Shown here: piece after piece, positions 12,331-19,736 of the stretch
How positions within the stretch are numbered: position 1 is the stretch's first letter
Layout of the letters: every line of letters starts with the position of its first letter
Assembly: GCF_019104765.1 (NCBI RefSeq)
Contig: NZ_JAHRXJ010000002.1
Span: forward strand, 133,069-197,068
DNA: 64,000 nt
Source: Synechococcus sp. HK05
GTDB lineage: Bacteria > Cyanobacteriota > Cyanobacteriia > PCC-6307 > Cyanobiaceae
Direction: 5' to 3'
The notes under the pieces: generated by a model
Told to the model about the DNA's origin: nothing
The model's input: the letters and a program-made list of their open reading frames with translations, nothing else
Databases searched by the model: none
Program-made: the position numbers and the translations under genes

Positions 12331-12654
12331 GTGGCCTGCCCCAGCTGTGGTGCTCGCCTGGTGGCCGTGTCCACGGAACCGCCGATCCGCCTGATCTGCG
12401 CCGGCTGCGGACGCCCCCTGCCGGTGAAACCTGGGCTGCCCCCCTATCTGTGGCTCCAGCTCAATCTGCGCCGTTGGCTGCTGCTGCTTCTGCTGCTGGT
12501 GCTGCCGCTGTTGCTGTTCAGCATCTCGCCTCTCAATGACTCCTCTGCCTCCCGAAATCAGCGGGCACGCCTCGGGCGGACCACCATGGGACGGGTGCTG
12601 CAGAACCGCCAGGCTCAGCAATCTGCGCCGCAGCGGCGGCGCCAGAGTCCATAG
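12331..12654 (+). CDS. Small zinc-ribbon membrane protein, function unknown
   Basis: 107 residues with a GTG start at 12331. Two knuckles, CPSC at residues 3-6 and CAGC near 23, form a plausible zinc ribbon. A Leu-rich transmembrane helix follows at about residues 49-64, then a basic tail (RNQRARLGRT and RRRQ). Its last 40 bp overlap the end of the convergent P-type ATPase gene. I do not know the family. The zinc-ribbon-plus-helix design argues for a real gene. Confidence 0.6.
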   Translation: MACPSCGARLVAVSTEPPIRLICAGCGRPLPVKPGLPPYLWLQLNLRRWLLLLLLLVLPLLLFSISPLNDSSASRNQRARLGRTTMGRVLQNRQAQQSAPQRRRQSP

Positions 12655-15377
12655 AGCTTGTCGAGCTCGAGGTAAAGGAACAGCAGCAGGCTGAAGCCCA
12701 CACAGATCAGCAGATCGTGGGCACTGAGGGCCGTGGTGCCAAAGAAGCGCGACAGCGGCGGCGCATAGAGCAGCAGCAATTGCAGGCCGCTGGTGCAGCT
12801 CACCGCCACCAACAACCAGGGATTACTAAAGGCCGGCACCTGGAGCAGCGGCCGTTCGCTGCGGGCGGAGAGGGCATGGCCCATCTGCGCCAGGCAGAGG
12901 GTGGTGAACACCATGGTGGGCCAGGGCGCGCCGGCCCGGTTGGCCAGCAGCATCATCAGAATCACCAGGGCGGCAAACACCACGCCGATGCGCAGGATGT
13001 AAGCCCCCAGCCCACGCGCAAAGATCGATTCCCCCGGTAGGGCCGGCGCTCGCCGCATCAGTTGATCGTCGCCCGGTTCCAACGCCAGGGCCAGGGCCGG
13101 CAAGCCGTCGGTCACCAGATTCATCCAGAGAATCTGCAGGGGGGTGAGCGGTACGCCCACGAGCCCCAGCAGTGGAGCCGATCCGATGGTGATCAGTTCT
13201 CCCACATTGCTGCCGAGGATGTATTTCACGAAGCGGCGGATGTTGGTGTACACCAACCGCCCTTCGGCAACGGCCTTCACGATCGTGGCGAAGTTGTCGT
13301 CGAGCAGCACCACATCGGCGGCTTCTTTGCTCACATCCGTGCCCGTGATGCCCATGGCTACGCCGATGTGGGCCTGCTTGAGGGCCGGGGCATCATTCAC
13401 GCCATCGCCGGTCATCGCCACCACCTCACCGTTGGCCTGCAGTGCTTTCACGATGCGCAGCTTCTGCTCAGGAGCCACCCGCGCGAACAGGTTGCAGCGG
13501 CTCACCACCTGCTGGAGCTCGGCGGCATCCAGGGCATCGAGCTCGCGCCCAACGATCACCTCGCTCCCTGCATCGGCCAGGCCGATGGCCGCACCGATGG
13601 CCCGGGCGGTGAGGGGGTGGTCGCCCGTGATCATCAGGGGCCGGATGCCGGCTTGCCGGCAGGTGGCCACGGCGGCGGCCACCTCAGGCCGTGCGGGGTC
13701 GAGCTGGGCCATCAGGCCCAGCAACACTTGCCCGTTCAGCCCCTGGCTCGGGCTCGGGTGATGGGGGGCGCAGGCAAAGGCCAGCACCCGGAGCCCGGCT
13801 CCGGCCAGCTCCAGGGCTTGCTCCAGCCACCAGTGCCGCTGCGCAGCGCTCATCGGCACCACGCCGCCCCCATCGATCCAGCGATCGCAGAGGCTGAGGA
13901 TCACCTCCGGTGCCCCTTTGCTGATCAGCAAGCGTGCGGATCCGGCCGCGCTGGTCCCGAGGGGGGCCTGGAGGTCGCCGTGAGGATCTTCGATCCATAC
14001 CGCCATCAGCTGCTCCTCCGCGCTGAAGGGGATTTCGGCGCTGCGGCGGTAGTGGCTGCGCAGCTCGAAGTCATCGATGCCAGCCTTTAAGGCCACCACC
14101 GAGAGCGCTCCCTCCGTGGGATCTCCCAGCACCTCCCAGCGGCCATCGGCCCGCTGGCGGTGTTCGGCATCGCTGCAGAGCACCCCGGCCTGCAGCAACA
14201 GGGTTTGCGCCTCCGTTGGGCAGCCTGCTCGCGCTCCGGGGGGCGGCGGTAGCGCCTCGGTGCGCAACTGGCCCTCGGGTTCATATCCCTGACCCGACAC
14301 CTCCACCACCGTGGTGCCTACCCGCAGCTGCTGCACCACCTGTCGGTTCTGGGTGAGGGTGCCGGTTTTGTCGGAGCAGATCACCGTCACCGAGCCGAGC
14401 CCTTCCACCGCCGGCAGCCGCCGGATCAGGGCGGCGCGGCGCACCATGCGCTGGGTGCCAATGGCGAGGGTCACCGTGATCACAGCCGGCAGCCCCTCCG
14501 GCACGATCGCCACCGCCATCGAGAGCGACACCTCGAGCAGGTTGAGCAGGGGCTGACCCAGGAGCCAGCCCAGCACCACCACCACGGCCACCAGGCCGAG
14601 GGCACCGCCCACAAGCGCCTTGGCTAAGCCATCGAGCCGATCCTGCAGGGGGGTGCTTTCCCCGCCGGCGGTGTTGAGCATGCTGGCGATCTGGCCCAGC
14701 TCGGTGCCCATGCCGGTGGCACTCACCACGGCCACGCCTCGCCCCCGCACCACTTCGGTGCCCTGAAACAGGCAATTGAGCCGCTCCAGCACGGGCGTGC
14801 CGGGCTCCAGGACCAGATCGGCCCGCTTGAACACGGGCTCTGCCTCGCCCGTGAGCGCCGATTCCTGCACGCCGAGATCGGCCACCTCCAGCAGGCGGGC
14901 ATCGGCGGCGATTCGGTCACCGGCTTCGATGCGGATCAGATCGCCCGGCACGAGCTCCTCGCTGGCCAGCCGTTGCCACTGCCCATCCCGGCGCACGTGC
15001 ACGAGGGGCTGAGCCAGGTTGCGCAGCGCCAGCAGAGCCTGCTGCGCCTTGCTCTCCTGGAGGTAGCCCAGTAGAGCGTTGAGCAGCACGATCACCAGGA
15101 TCGCGATCGCATCCTTTGGAAACTCCTGCTGATGCAGGGCCGCAGCGCCAGATACGGCGGCCACCGCTAGCAGCATCAGCAGCATCACGTTGCTGAACTG
15201 ATCCCAGAGGATCCGCCAGGGGCTGCGGCCGGCGGAGAGCTGCAAGCGATTGGGGCCGCTGGAGGCCTGGCGCCGCTTGGCCTCGGCGTTGCTCAGGCCA
15301 TCCCAATCACTGCGAAGGGCTGCGCAACAGGCCTCGGTGTCCATGGCATGCCAATGGATGGAGGCGGAGTCAGCCAA
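12615..15377 (-). CDS. P-type cation ATPase, P2A (Ca2+-type, PacL-like)
   Basis: 920 residues. Domains in order: N-terminal cation-ATPase domain ([15 protein letters not shown]), actuator loop with [13 protein letters not shown]4 with [12 protein letters not shown], phosphorylation site at D336 in [11 protein letters not shown], hinge [13 protein letters not shown], then six C-terminal helices with NVGELITI and [23 protein letters not shown] in TM4 and N-TD in TM6 are the ion ligands of SERCA-type Ca2+ pumps, so export of Ca2+ (or Mn2+) is most likely. The TTG at 15377 keeps the conserved HWHAMDTE start region; ATG 15344 is the alternative. Confidence 0.88.
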
Positions 15378-15474
15378 CGCGGCCCGCAGCAGCTGCCTTG
15401 AGTCTGTTGGATTTCAGCGGCTTGTCTGCCTCAGGAGAGCATGGCTAAAGAGCTCGATAGACACCGTCCTGCCA

Positions 15475-16638
15475 ATGCCCTCGCCCCAGGATTGGAATCG
15501 TGCTGGCTTACCTGCCTGGACCTACCGCAGCGAGAGGTTGCTTTCGGTGGAGGCCGAGCGGGTGTTCCTCAATCACTGGCATGTGGTGGGCCACCTCAAC
15601 GATGTCCGTGAACCCGGCGACTGGCTGAGCTTCGATCTGCTGGGCGAGCGGGCCCTGGTAATGCGCGGCAAGGATGGTGTGGTCCGCGCCTTTCACAACA
15701 CCTGTCGCCATCGTGGTTCGCGCCTGGTCGAAGGCGAGAGCGGTCAGTGCCGCGGGGCCCTGGTTTGTCCTTTTCACGCCTGGGTGTACGACCTGGAGGG
15801 TCAGCTCAAAACGCCTTCTCAGCCGGACAAGTTTCCCGAGCTGGACTCCCAGGGGTGGGGGCTGAAGTGTCTTGAGCTGGAGGTCTGGCGCGGTCTGTTG
15901 TTTCTGCGTTTCGAGCCTGGGCCTCAGCCCGCCGTTGCCACGTTGATGGCTCGCCATGAACAAGAGCTGCACCCTTATCCGCTGGAATCCCTGCAACCCA
16001 CCGATGGCTTCTACAGCAGTCCCGTTACGCCAGTGAACTGGAAGGCGATGGTGGATGTGGATAACGAGTGCTATCACTGCCCCACCGCTCATCCAGGCCT
16101 CAGTGATCTGTACGGTCGCCGTTATGAGGAGGGCCCCTGGATCGACGGGACCCATCGCATCCGTGGGCCCTTCAACGCATCGGAATCGCGGCACGAGATC
16201 AATCGCGACTATCGCGAGCTGGTGGACCAGCATCCCGAACCGTTCGCGAGCCTTCCCCAGGCCTGGTTGTACATCGGCCTGTTCCCGGTATCGGTGTTGG
16301 TGTTTTATCCGGAATCTGCTGGTTTCTACCGCTCGATCCCCCTGGATGCCACCACATCAGTGATGACTGGAGCGACCTATCGCTATGACGGTGAATCAGA
16401 GAGTATGCGCGAAGCCCGCGCGCTCTCTCAGCAGATTGATGCTGCGGTGATGGAAGAAGATAAACATGTCTGCGAGCTTCACTTTCAGGCAACAGCGTCT
16501 CGCTACTGGGAGCAAGCGATCCTGGGTGACTCGGAGAAGGCCCTGCGCGAGCATCACGACATGCTCAGGGCGCTGATCCCTGAGTTGAATGCCACGCGTG
16601 AGCCGGGCTCATTTGAGTCCGATGCCAGGGGCGCCTGA
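15475..16638 (+). CDS. Rieske non-heme iron oxygenase, quaternary-amine monooxygenase-like
   Basis: 387 residues, ATG 15475. The Rieske cluster ligands are C77, H79, C98 and H101 (CRH and CPFH). The catalytic site lies at 198-206: E198-C-Y-H201-C-P-T-A-H206. Classical ring hydroxylases have Asp at the first position; the Glu is typical of carnitine monooxygenase CntA and relatives acting on quaternary amines, so I infer a methylated-amine substrate rather than an aromatic one. No reductase gene is adjacent. It converges on an SMR transporter gene with a 30-bp overlap. Substrate unknown. Confidence 0.78.
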   Translation: MPSPQDWNRAGLPAWTYRSERLLSVEAERVFLNHWHVVGHLNDVREPGDWLSFDLLGERALVMRGKDGVVRAFHNTCRHRGSRLVEGESGQCRGALVCPFHAWVYDLEGQLKTPSQPDKFPELDSQGWGLKCLELEVWRGLLFLRFEPGPQPAVATLMARHEQELHPYPLESLQPTDGFYSSPVTPVNWKAMVDVDNECYHCPTAHPGLSDLYGRRYEEGPWIDGTHRIRGPFNASESRHEINRDYRELVDQHPEPFASLPQAWLYIGLFPVSVLVFYPESAGFYRSIPLDATTSVMTGATYRYDGESESMREARALSQQIDAAVMEEDKHVCELHFQATASRYWEQAILGDSEKALREHHDMLRALIPELNATREPGSFESDARGA

Positions 16639-16959
16639 TTGCAATGAAAGATTGATCAACAGGATGCCCCCAATCACCAGCACGAGGCCAAGGGCGCTGC
16701 GACGGCTGAAGCGTTCTCCATAGAGCAACACACCCAGACATGTGACCAACGTGAGGCCAAGTCCCGACCAGAGTGCATAGGTCAGCCCGAGGGGGAGGCG
16801 GGCTAACGTTAGACCCAACATCAGGGAAGAAAGCACATATCCCAGCACCGAAAGCGCTACCAGTGCAGGCTTCTTCAGACCGTCAGATCCCTTCAGGGCA
16901 GTGGTTCCGAGGTTCTCGAAACCGATGGCCAGGGCGAGAGTGAGATAGCCGGCCCACAT
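16609..16959 (-). CDS. SMR-family transporter, subunit 2 of a pair
   Basis: 116 residues from ATG 16959; the upstream SMR stop overlaps by one base (TGATG), and a GTG at 16962 is an alternative. Four hydrophobic helices. The essential Glu of helix 1 is present (ALAIGFENLGTTALK, about residue 15), as is the LTYALWSGLGLTLV signature of helix 3 (PF00893). SMR proteins exchange protons for organic cations, quaternary ammonium compounds or guanidinium. Two tandem, unequal SMR genes usually form a heterodimer, as in EbrAB and YkkCD. Confidence 0.85.
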   Translation of the reverse strand: MWAGYLTLALAIGFENLGTTALKGSDGLKKPALVALSVLGYVLSSLMLGLTLARLPLGLTYALWSGLGLTLVTCLGVLLYGERFSRRSALGLVLVIGGILLINLSLQSGAPGIGLK

Positions 16960-17312
16960 CACGCCGCCTCCGATCCCAGGTTCAACACGCAGACCCCTGC
17001 GATCACCATCAAGACGCCCAAGGCGCTCACGGGTGTGAATTGCTCACAGAAGCAAAGAATTCCCGCTGCCGTGGCGATCAGCATGCCCAGTCCAGACCAC
17101 AGCGCATAAGCCAGGCCCATCGGCAGCGCACGCATGCTGCGACCGAAGAAATAGAACGACAGGATGTAGCCGATCACGGCGATGGCTGAAGGCTGGGCCT
17201 GTGTGAAGCCTTCCGAGGCCTTCAGAGCTAGTGTTCCGGCCTGTTCTGCTGAGATCGCAAACAGCAGCTCTGCCATGCAACGCAGGCGCAGGCGTGCACT
17301 GGTGGCTTGCAT
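16959..17312 (-). CDS. SMR-family transporter, subunit 1 of a pair
   Basis: 117 residues from ATG 17312, which directly follows the Rrf2 stop codon. A shorter start at ATG 17276 gives 105 residues but cuts into the usual first helix. It has the same layout as its neighbour: Glu in helix 1 (FAISAEQAGTLALK), helix 3 LAYALWSGLGMLIA, then GVLMVIAGVCVLNLG. It probably forms a heterodimeric SMR exporter with the next gene under control of the Rrf2 regulator. Confidence 0.83.
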   Translation of the reverse strand: MQATSARLRLRCMAELLFAISAEQAGTLALKASEGFTQAQPSAIAVIGYILSFYFFGRSMRALPMGLAYALWSGLGMLIATAAGILCFCEQFTPVSALGVLMVIAGVCVLNLGSEAA

Positions 17313-17741
17313 TCAGATGAAATACATCGTCTGGGCCTGCAGCATGGCATCGCGTTCGTGGAGCAGGTCGGCCAGGCTGATGGCCTCTAGCCGGGCCAGG
17401 CGTTGCTGGAGTAGGGCGCTGCCGAGCTGCTCGATCACTCTCCGTTCGGCACTGCTTGCGCCAGGGCTGATGCTTTTGGATTCGCCCTCCAGGCACAGGA
17501 TCACCTCCAAAAGGGTGATCTCAGCGGCGGGCCGGGCCAGCTGGAAGCCACCGCGGGCGCCGCGGATGCTGCGCAGAAGGCCTCCTCGGCGCAGCATCGC
17601 CATCATCTGCTCGAGATAGCGCTCGGGGATCGCCTGGCGGGCTGCGATCTCCGCCACCTGCAGGCGTTCCTCCCGGCCTTGCACGCCTGCCAGCTCCAGC
17701 AGTGCCAGCAGGCCGTAGGTGGTTTTGGCGCAGAAGCCCAC
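17313..17741 (-). CDS. Rrf2-family transcriptional regulator
   Basis: 142 residues with a GTG start at 17741, chosen because the family begins right at this point (GFCAKTTYGLLALLELAG, winged-helix start). The recognition region reads IPERYLEQMMAMLRRGGLLRSIRGARGGFQLARP, the strongest Rrf2 signature (PF02082). IscR and NsrR hold an Fe-S cluster on three Cys after this region; here only one Cys is present (LCLEGE), so a cluster of that kind is unlikely and it may respond to another signal, as CymR does. It is the first gene of an operon with two SMR genes and is divergent from the SLC13 gene. Confidence 0.85.
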   Translation of the reverse strand: MGFCAKTTYGLLALLELAGVQGREERLQVAEIAARQAIPERYLEQMMAMLRRGGLLRSIRGARGGFQLARPAAEITLLEVILCLEGESKSISPGASSAERRVIEQLGSALLQQRLARLEAISLADLLHERDAMLQAQTMYFI

Positions 17742-17903
17742 GGCTGGATGGATCCGTCGCTGTGCAGTCTGGCATTGAAACCACGGTGAATGGGTCGTCT
17801 TTTGGGGCTGACTGCCGGTCTTTTTGCGCTTCTGCTCCGCAGAACCAGTTGTGCTGCAGTTGATCTCAGGATTCAGGCAAAAATCCGATCTGATCGCCGT
17901 TCT

Positions 17904-19736
17904 ATGCTGAATCAATCCTGCTGCCAGGCCGTGACGGATCTGCTTGCTGCTCTGCTGCAGCCAGGGGCGCTGATCACCCTTGTGGTGCTGCTGGGCTCGG
18001 TGGTGTTGTTCGTGAGTGGTTGGCTGGCTCCGGAGCTCACCGGCCTGCTGGCGGCTGGCACGCTGGTGGCCACCGGGGTGCTGCAGCCCACGGAGGCCAT
18101 GGCGGGCTTCGGCAGTCCGGCGCTGATCACCTTGATGGGCCTGTTCGCGATTGCGGCGGCGCTGTTTCGCAGCGGCGCTCTGGACCGGCTCAGGGCGCTG
18201 ATCGGTTCCGATGCCGTGCGGAGCCCCAGGCGGATGATCGCGCTGATGGTGGCTGCGGTGGGCCCTGTGTCCGCCGTGGTGCCCAACACACCGATTGTGG
18301 CGAGTTTGTTGCCGGTGATCGAGGGCTGGTGCCAGCGGCGCCGCATCTCGCCCTCGAAGGTATTGCTGCCCCTGTCCTTCGCCACTGTTCTTGGGGGCAC
18401 GCTCACCCTGCTGGGCAGCTCGGTGAATCTGCTGGCCAGCGAGGTGAGCAGCAAGCTCGGCTACGGCGCGTTCGGGCTCTTCAGCTTCACGCCGATCGGC
18501 ATCGGTGTGTGGCTGGTGGGCGGGCTGGTGATGCTGCTTCTGGCCGACCGGTTGCTGCCGGATCGCGGCAGCAATGACGACGATCTGATGGCCGACCTCT
18601 CCGGCAGCGGCTACCTCACCGAGGTGGAGATTCCTCCCGCTTCCGAGTTGATCGGCCGCTCCCTGCACGCCAGCCGCCTGCAGCGGCGCTTCGATGTGGA
18701 TGTGCTGGAGCTGCACCGCGGCAACGAGCGTTTTCTGCCGCCCCTGGCCGATCGCACCCTGGCCCTGGGTGATCGCTTGCTGCTGCGCTGCAGCCGTGAG
18801 GATCTGCTGCGTCTGCAGCAAGACCACACCGTGGTGCTGGCTCCCACCCCGGAGGAGCCGGTGGCACCGGATCAGCAGAACAATCAGCGCATGGTGGAGG
18901 TGCTGCTCCCCTCGGGCTCAACCCTGGCGGGCGATTGCCTGCGGGATCTGCGTTTCCGTCAGCGCTACAACGCCACTGTGCTGGCGCTGCGCCGCGGCAA
19001 TGCCGTGCTGCGCGAGCGGCTCGGACGCGTGCAGTTGCGCGATGGCGATGTGCTGCTGCTGCAAGGCCCGAAGGATGCCATCCGCGGCCTCCAGGCCAGC
19101 AACGATTTGGTGGTGCTCGAGCAGCTGGAGAAGGATCTGCCCACGGTGAGCCGCAAGCGCATCGCCCTGCTGATCGGTGCCCTGGTGATCCTGCTTCCGG
19201 CCTTGGACCTGATGCCCCTGGTGGCATCGGTGTTGCTGGGCACCGTGGCGATGGTGGCCAGCGGCTGCCTGCGGGCCGGCGAGCTGCAGCGGGCGATTCG
19301 CCTCGATGTGATCCTGCTGCTGGGATCCCTGGCCAGCTTCAGCGTGGCTCTGGAGAAAACCGGCCTGGCAGCGGCCCTGGCCCAGGCCTTGCTGCTGGGG
19401 CTTCGCAACTGGCCGGTGTATGCGGCCCTGCTGGTGGTGTTTTTGTTCACCACCCTGCTCACCGAGGTGATGAGCAATGCCGCCACGGTGGCCATGCTGA
19501 TTCCGATTGCCGGCCAGTTGGCCCAGGGCCTGGATCAGCCGCCGATGGCCTTCATCTATGCCGTGCTGTTCGGCGCCAGTCAGAGCTTCCTCAGCCCGGT
19601 GGGCTACCAAACCAACCTGATGGTGTTAGGCCCCGGTCGCTATCGCTTTCTCGATGTCCCGCGCTATGGATTTCCGCTCACCATCACGATGACCATCACG
19701 GTGCCGTTCCTGATCTGCCGCTGGTTCGGTCTCTGA
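17904..19736 (+). CDS. SLC13/DASS-family permease with two RCK_C (TrkA-C) domains
   Basis: 610 residues from ATG 17904. The N-terminal and C-terminal thirds are hydrophobic and belong to the CitMHS/DASS ion-transporter class (PGALITLVVLLGSVVLF; VPNTPIVASLLPVIEGW; EVMSNAATVAMLIPIAG). The middle (about residues 235-415) holds two TrkA-C-like domains, each ending in a pattern such as LALGDRLLLRCSREDLLRLQ and LRDGDVLLLQGPKDAIRGLQ. This layout is typical of cyanobacterial and algal SAC1-like sodium/sulfate or anion transporters. The anion cannot be named from sequence. A longer upstream extension is possible but unlikely. Confidence 0.85.
   Translation: MLNQSCCQAVTDLLAALLQPGALITLVVLLGSVVLFVSGWLAPELTGLLAAGTLVATGVLQPTEAMAGFGSPALITLMGLFAIAAALFRSGALDRLRALIGSDAVRSPRRMIALMVAAVGPVSAVVPNTPIVASLLPVIEGWCQRRRISPSKVLLPLSFATVLGGTLTLLGSSVNLLASEVSSKLGYGAFGLFSFTPIGIGVWLVGGLVMLLLADRLLPDRGSNDDDLMADLSGSGYLTEVEIPPASELIGRSLHASRLQRRFDVDVLELHRGNERFLPPLADRTLALGDRLLLRCSREDLLRLQQDHTVVLAPTPEEPVAPDQQNNQRMVEVLLPSGSTLAGDCLRDLRFRQRYNATVLALRRGNAVLRERLGRVQLRDGDVLLLQGPKDAIRGLQASNDLVVLEQLEKDLPTVSRKRIALLIGALVILLPALDLMPLVASVLLGTVAMVASGCLRAGELQRAIRLDVILLLGSLASFSVALEKTGLAAALAQALLLGLRNWPVYAALLVVFLFTTLLTEVMSNAATVAMLIPIAGQLAQGLDQPPMAFIYAVLFGASQSFLSPVGYQTNLMVLGPGRYRFLDVPRYGFPLTITMTITVPFLICRWFGL

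Follow-up and report, generated by a model that had tools for sequence, protein, structure and literature searches.

A convergent cassette of a Rieske oxygenase gene and an SMR transporter pair in picocyanobacteria and a Halieaceae MAG

Two kinds of described system come close to the locus reported here, the Rieske oxygenases that act on quaternary amines and the paired SMR transporters. In CntA, a member of the first kind, a Cys pair has been proposed to have a role in keeping the iron ferrous (PMC10952381). Paired, i.e. heterodimeric SMR transporters are recognized by adjacent genes and by opposite K/R bias of the two proteins, and the native substrates of Qac-type SMR exporters were yet to be identified according to a 2022 review (PMC9574504). 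In this work we describe a locus in which genes of these two kinds meet. A search of the open-licence PMC literature found no description of a cassette made of a Rieske oxygenase and an SMR pair, absence there being no proof; as far as literature searches go the combination is new, and it is built of known families.

The locus and the conserved unit

The window, i.e. the whole stretch of 64,000 nucleotides that was analysed, belongs to the 2.53 Mb genome of Synechococcus sp. HK05, whose neighbours and named relatives are picocyanobacteria. The features of the locus, with the basis of each call in brackets, are:

12615-15377, minus strand: P-type cation ATPase, bordering the site on the side of RO (Pfam, synteny)
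15475-16638, plus strand: RO, Rieske non-heme iron oxygenase alpha subunit, 387 aa (Pfam, conservation)
16609-16959, minus strand: SMRa, 116 aa from the ATG at 16959, with a GTG at 16962, motif E-N-L-G-T (Pfam, NCBIfam, motif)
16959-17312, minus strand: SMRb, 117 aa, with a basic N-terminal extension, motif E-Q-A-G-T (Pfam, NCBIfam, motif)
17313-17741, minus strand: Rrf2 regulator, genus-resident flank of the cassette (Pfam, synteny in relatives)
17790-19736, plus strand: CitMHS/TrkA-C permease, resident neighbour of Rrf2 (Pfam, synteny)

The RO gene runs convergently into SMRa, SMRb and then Rrf2. The 3' ends of RO and SMRa overlap by 30 nt, the SMRa start is overlapped by the stop codon of SMRb, and the Rrf2 stop adjoins the SMRb start. 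The Pfam scores exceeded the cut-offs for all four proteins (RO: Rieske 66.2 bits and Ring_hydroxyl_A 88.7 bits; SMRs: Multi_Drug_Res 72.8 and 78.3 bits; Rrf2: 102.8 bits). These data bear out the four reading frames and the convergent layout of an initial annotation of this DNA, which was also right in placing no reductase gene next to the oxygenase, the flanks being the ATPase and the permease. SMRb probably starts at 17312 and not at the internal ATG at 17276, because relatives keep the basic N-terminal extension and in the Halieaceae copy Phe replaces the internal Met. By consensus neither promoters nor terminators were detected, the matches not exceeding those in shuffled sequence. A search for mobile ends within 15378-17312 detected three inverted pairs and one direct pair, none of them spanning both ends.

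The SMR pair lies convergently at the 3' end of RO in seven of seven loci, i.e. in the window and in the loci of six close RO relatives (76-94%), five cyanobacterial, one of these with a broken RO, and one from the MAG of an unrelated marine bacterium (Halieaceae). The 3' ends of RO and SMRa overlap by 30, 30, 30, 21, 24 and 24 nt in six of these loci and are separated by a gap in L043. The surroundings vary, with porin-like and chitinase-like genes in L039, prochlorosin-like leaders and a LanM-like gene in L040, and heterotroph genes in L042 (names taken from ORF reading, not from family search). Only three genes, RO, SMRa and SMRb, are common to all loci, thus the cassette brings along neither an importer nor a reductase nor another gene of catabolism. 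Although the identity of SMRa has fallen to 45-51%, the synteny persists. This is strong evidence that the unit consists of RO, SMRa and SMRb, kept together convergently in unrelated surroundings.

A close RO (at least 78%) was found in four of 201 genomes of the family: the own genome, G064 from the same genus, and two from another genus, G181 and G193; the matches that followed were mostly partial and did not exceed 40%. In a sample of 339 genomes of the phylum, which did not draw G181 or G193, the own genome and G064 scored as holding RO orthologues and 13 others matched at less than 150 bits. A scan of GTDB r220 (one genome per species) returned five RO relatives: a Synechococcus MAG (L041, 94%), the Halieaceae MAG (L042, 81%), Synechococcus AG-679-A04 (L043, 76-79%) and two Rhodobacteraceae/Paracoccaceae MAGs (43-44%). 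The cassette is therefore seen in at least two picocyanobacterial genera as well as in a Halieaceae MAG. As a side observation, the G193 copy lies in a region (L040, 2121-17212) that, by reading, encodes leader peptides of the Nif11/prochlorosin-like kind together with a LanM-like protein.

The Rrf2 gene does not belong to this unit. The surroundings of the cassette at L038, L039, L040, L042 and L043 showed no Rrf2, and an Rrf2 orthologue (53-68%) is present in 10 of 10 other genomes sampled from the same genus (11 of 11 counting the own genome). Rrf2 is resident in the genus and borders the cassette, and the Rrf2-SMR-SMR arrangement reflects local adjacency instead of a conserved operon. The proposals that the three genes form an operon and that Rrf2 regulates the module are therefore not supported, and the suggested joint occurrence of four genes in relatives reduces to three, Rrf2 being independent of RO and the SMR pair; the module stands in this reduced form. 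IscR-like members of the Rrf2 family usually carry a three-Cys motif. The Rrf2 of the window lacks it: counted from a GTG at 17741, a start in agreement with that of the family, there are two cysteines, C4 and C83, instead of the single one counted initially. The protein scored 66.9 bits on the IscR model, below the cut-off of 207.6 bits, and 96.8 bits on the Rrf2 superfamily model, above the cut-off of 73.3 bits.

The site itself is variable. In G134 the ATPase, Rrf2 and the permease follow in order with 117 bp from Rrf2 to the first possible ATPase start, and there is no RO or SMR match at the site. The syntenic site of G064 (L198, 8604-8736) has a 5' remnant of RO (residues 1-22 and 27-53), the intact cassette of this genome being elsewhere. 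In G200 (L201, 2521-8919) an amino-acid-type ABC transporter and antiporter-like genes (by reading) separate the ATPase from Rrf2, and in L041 the cassette occupies the same site as in the window, next to the 3' end of Rrf2, where the contig stops. It follows from these layouts that the genus both held and lost a cassette at this place. The ATPase of G009 and G092 was unmatched within the stretch fetched.

The cassette moves horizontally, as evidenced by the differing flanks, a dip in G+C, the cassette-free site of G134, the scar in G064 and the Halieaceae copy. In the window the G+C content of the cassette genes is 0.58-0.61 and their GC3 0.65-0.71, compared with 0.66-0.68 and 0.81-0.84 in the flanks. 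The G+C content of the genes in L042 ranges from 0.49 (SMRa) to 0.56, i.e. the cassette is embedded in compositionally similar DNA, which argues against a cyanobacterial contaminant. The thiolase gene on the left flank of L042 matches 42 of 61 Halieaceae genomes (own included; 50-73% in 41 of the 60 others). The right-flank gene matched only its own genome among the Halieaceae genomes searched, thus the placement is unproven on that side and a chimaeric contig is possible. A close RO was found in one of 140 genomes of the Halieaceae family (G498). Four other genomes of that family have full-length RO relatives (about 240-250 bits, 31-32% identical to the alphaproteobacterial RO1 described below), and the short stretches seen around them gave no SMR match. 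A virus was also considered as vehicle; the scan of viral contigs gave 74 pattern matches, none of which was a relative.

The SMR pair can live without RO. L043 has an intact SMR pair, while its RO is interrupted by a frameshift and by a stop codon at the Trp of NWK, which could be a single-cell assembly error. Two SMR pairs of the cassette type occur in G075, one of them having a short SMRa, and neither is accompanied by an RO match; the link between RO and the SMRs is therefore not obligate from the SMR side. RO without the SMR pair was seen only as the scar of G064.

The oxygenase and its relatives

A CxH...CxxH motif and a facial triad in the Ring_hydroxyl_A domain identify RO as the alpha subunit of a Rieske non-heme iron oxygenase. 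We take C77, H79, C98 and H101 to be the Rieske ligands, and H201, H206 and probably D329 those of the mononuclear iron, roles assigned from family knowledge plus conservation; all seven residues are invariant in an alignment of eight RO rows. The bridging position, residue 198, lies within NWKAMVDVDNECYHCPTAH and is indeed Glu in place of the usual Asp, as had been noted initially, followed by the Cys pair C199/C202. The motif DNECYHC occurs in six of six intact cassette ROs, so all six have both cysteines. Judged from a dN/dS of 0.098 relative to the nearest relative (L041), the function of RO appears to be kept. The AlphaFold model, made from a five-row alignment, had a mean pLDDT of 29.2.

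The Glu bridge had been taken as a sign of a quaternary-amine-type oxygenase. It is also present in other RO clades of our 101-sequence collection, thus E198 is not diagnostic of Group V, nor by itself of a quaternary amine. The best PDB match of RO by sequence was CntA (E 1.4e-34), and on the NCBIfam equivalog model of GbcA (NF058607) RO reached 128.6 bits, far below the cut-off of 670 bits. After removal of near-duplicates, a first tree was built from 63 of the collected sequences and a CntA stretch, and a second from 56 sequences, from which the CntA stretch, the PAO-like protein and six further divergent rows were dropped as well. In the second tree the six cassette rows formed a clade (100/100), and together with 19 alphaproteobacterial rows a 25-row clade (100/100), which stands apart from the rows of YeaW, Stc2 and the GbcA-like proteins (the latter scoring about 282 bits on the GbcA model, under its cut-off). 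AU tests rejected the placement of RO in the YeaW group (p 0.0006), in the Stc2/GbcA-like/RO2 group (p 0.013) and in a union of the two (p 0.0007), for groups that were named after the tree was seen and in a tree that contains no proven GbcA and has HcaE as a long branch. RO grouped neither with the PAO-like protein of its own genome nor with HcaE, both long branches, so the placement among pheophorbide or aromatic oxygenases that was named in advance as speaking against the module did not appear either.

These results bear on the reading proposed in the initial annotation, that RO demethylates a betaine- or carnitine-like compound for catabolism in the manner of CntA, GbcA or Stc2, that the SMR exports the product and that Rrf2 is in control. 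The Glu bridge with the Cys pair, the first rank of CntA among the PDB sequence matches, and the GcvT-like genes and, in some cases, Stc2/GbcA-like second RO of kin operons would fit it, but the AU tests reject the tree placement, Rrf2 is not conserved with the cassette, and neither an importer nor a reductase nor a further catabolic gene accompanies RO; we regard this reading as improbable. The assignment to the CntA, GbcA and Stc2 type was not upheld; of the predicted methylated amine or betaine, an amine-like cation is what survives, on the grounds of transporters as discussed below.

The nearest kin of RO are the alphaproteobacterial RO1 proteins, about 43-46% identical and uncharacterised as far as found. 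Their bridge motif is DNEGYHV or DNEAYHV in 32 of 32 rows (a count that leaves out the L120 row, its second RO, and in which L142 and L046 are one sequence), i.e. they lack the Cys pair, thus the cassette RO and RO1 may differ in substrate. RO1 was present in 31 of 248 genomes sampled from the family of L044; 28 of these, taken with wide flanks, make up the neighbourhood count, which leaves L044 and two others. All 28 neighbourhoods contain a gene of a Pot-type ABC importer, 26 of them at least three such genes (L126 and L135 end early), and the importer is also found at L044, at L045 and at five of seven plasmid loci, the five that were opened. It lies within about 10 kb of RO1, adjoining in most loci and some kilobases off in a few. 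A class III aminotransferase gene occurs in 17 and an aminomethyltransferase gene of the L046/L047 type in 12 of the 28 (19 and 16 with a looser cut), and a pair of FAD genes in nine. No SMR match was found in the 35 RO1 neighbourhoods examined, the 28 wide ones included. The one binding protein tested, from Fuscovulum, is PotF-like (316 bits versus 636). The FAD genes match Pfam Amino_oxidase; their top-ranking NCBIfam models are carotenoid enzymes, under the cut-off. Some RO1-kin operons hold a second RO of the Stc2/GbcA-like branch plus GcvT-like genes. One alphaproteobacterial cluster of 14 genes (L046, 394-16459) comprises two Rieske oxygenases, a GcvT-like protein, two FAD proteins, a PotFGHI-like importer, a DMSP-lyase-family cupin, an amidohydrolase and an aminotransferase nearest to GntE (420.5 bits versus 525).

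A more remote cyanobacterial clade, with Asp at the bridge, falls in the same 36-row half of the tree as the cassette RO (30-39% over part of the length). In eight stretches (L210-L217) the Asp-bridge Rieske gene lies beside a TauABC-like importer, six of the eight have an arginase-family gene, several have HypA/HypB-like genes, and NMT1-type binding-protein genes are also found. This neighbourhood matches the guanidine cluster described in PMC10119275.

The SMR pair

SMRa and SMRb show both hallmarks of paired SMRs, adjacency and opposite K/R bias. The numbers of K/R residues on the N/L2/C side and in L1/L3 are 2 versus 6 in SMRa and 5 versus 1 in SMRb, comparable to 1 versus 7 in MdtI and 6 versus 2 in MdtJ (the L040_b row is left out of these counts). 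In the tree SMRa and SMRb made up one 17-row group (95/96), within which SMRb was supported at 99/97 and SMRa at 87/92, the outgroup branches being long. With opposite charge bias and each being the other's nearest group, the two proteins look as expected of an antiparallel heterodimer.

The residue following the central Glu is Asn in SMRa and Gln in SMRb, in seven of seven cassette pairs and in the L195 pair of G075. It is Val or Ile in EmrE, Gdx, MdtI, MdtJ, the third SMR of the own genome and 11 of 15 other SMR loci read in the family (four had no readable motif, and matches without a locus were left out). The nearest subtypes were EbrA for SMRa (80.9 bits versus 160) and SMR_qac_int for SMRb (87.8 versus 188), both under the cut-off. 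The scores of SMRa and SMRb were likewise under the cut-offs of the MdtJ (44.0 and 43.4 versus 122 bits), MdtI (44.0 and 44.5 versus 103 bits) and SugE/Gdx models (33.4 and 50.8 versus 126 bits). Export of guanidinium, one of the suggested roles, is unlikely: the motifs are E-N-L-G and E-Q-A-G, not the E-V-V-W of E. coli Gdx, and the search for a guanidine riboswitch gave zero Rfam matches in the window at gathering scores.

Possible function and comparison with described systems

With about even confidence, we propose that RO, SMRa and SMRb form a transferable three-gene cassette with two parallel routes for disposing of a small cationic amine, oxidation and export. We infer the substrate class from the transporters: two unrelated families, SMR and Pot-type, accompany this RO subfamily, which makes an amine-like cation the most economical choice. 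According to the proposal, the SMR pair would use its two central glutamates to exchange protons for the amine, or for its product, and so expel it, and RO would hydroxylate the amine next to the nitrogen. A plant-type ferredoxin would supply the electrons, which E198 would hand on from the Rieske cluster to the mononuclear iron, and C199/C202 may help keep the iron ferrous, as proposed for CntA. The own genome has six Fer2 matches, all in short frames (102-153 aa), thus no CntB-like fused reductase was seen and a free ferredoxin is the likely donor; the external ferredoxin suggested initially is therefore plausible. Since some loci keep the SMR pair with a broken RO or with none, export could suffice by itself, and oxidation would be a second line. 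Our search found no literature link between homarine as a substrate and the cassette RO.

A bolder form of this proposal, which we consider rather unlikely, is that the Asn/Gln SMR pair represents a distinct functional subtype whose native substrate is the very amine destroyed by the convergent RO, and that the whole is a cross-phylum oxidise-or-export resistance cassette, in cyanobacteria running on photosynthetic ferredoxin, and directed against a marine cationic allelochemical or algal amine.

Three further explanations deserve comparison with the proposed oxidise-or-export cassette. RO and the SMRs might be functionally separate accessory genes, co-mobilised through their overlapping 3' ends. 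The SMR pairs of G075, which have no RO, and L043 with its broken RO and intact SMR pair would agree with this, but the pair is kept at seven of seven RO loci, L043 retains the layout without the overlap, and synteny has outlasted the divergence of SMRa, thus we think it quite improbable. It is very doubtful that RO makes a small natural product which the SMR pair secretes, as in welwitindolinone clusters: these do combine Rieske genes with an SMR gene, WelE4, in one cluster (PMC4236562), and the distribution of our cassette is patchy and mobile with a G+C dip, but the cassette travels without other biosynthetic genes. Least of all do we expect RO to act on an alkylated guanidine in a module of guanidine metabolism, which the Asp-bridge clade with its arginase-family, HypA/HypB-like and TauABC-like genes might suggest (cf. 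PMC10119275), since that kinship is remote, that clade bridges with Asp and not Glu, the SMR pair lacks the Gdx motif and the window has no Rfam match.

If the oxidise-or-export proposal is correct, an enzyme coupled to a dedicated SMR heterodimer would offer a handle on the native substrates of Qac-type SMRs, as the substrate of the soluble RO should equal, or be close to, the cargo of the pump. The cassette also opens an uncharacterised Rieske subfamily.

It is useful to compare the cassette with the known systems. The wel cluster resembles it in having Rieske genes and an SMR gene (WelE4) in one cyanobacterial cluster; by its description in PMC4236562, on which the comparison is based, it differs in being a large cluster for an alkaloid, and a single SMR gene is listed for it. 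CK_00002251, the Rieske protein of the picocyanobacterial guanidine cluster, is cyanobacterial and falls in the same tree half as the cassette RO, but it has an Asp bridge, about a third identity, and arginase-family, HypAB-like and TauABC-like neighbours (PMC10119275). MdtIJ and EbrAB (EbrAB compared by profile only) share with the cassette SMRs two adjacent genes, opposite charge bias and the conserved central Glu, Tyr and Trp, whereas the cassette SMRs have Asn/Gln after the central Glu, fall under every NCBIfam cut-off listed, and are coupled to a Rieske oxygenase. The alphaproteobacterial RO1 is united with the cassette RO in one clade (25 rows, 100/100) and by the DVDNE bridge motif, but it has no Cys pair, and in the 35 neighbourhoods a Pot-type importer is nearby and no SMR. 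CntA/YeaW, GbcA and Stc2, the Group V enzymes of quaternary amines, have in common with the cassette RO the Glu bridge and the Cys pair beside the iron ligands; the cassette RO differs from them in belonging to a separate clade (AU tests), in scoring far under the GbcA cut-off, in having no adjacent reductase gene and in being paired with an exporter.
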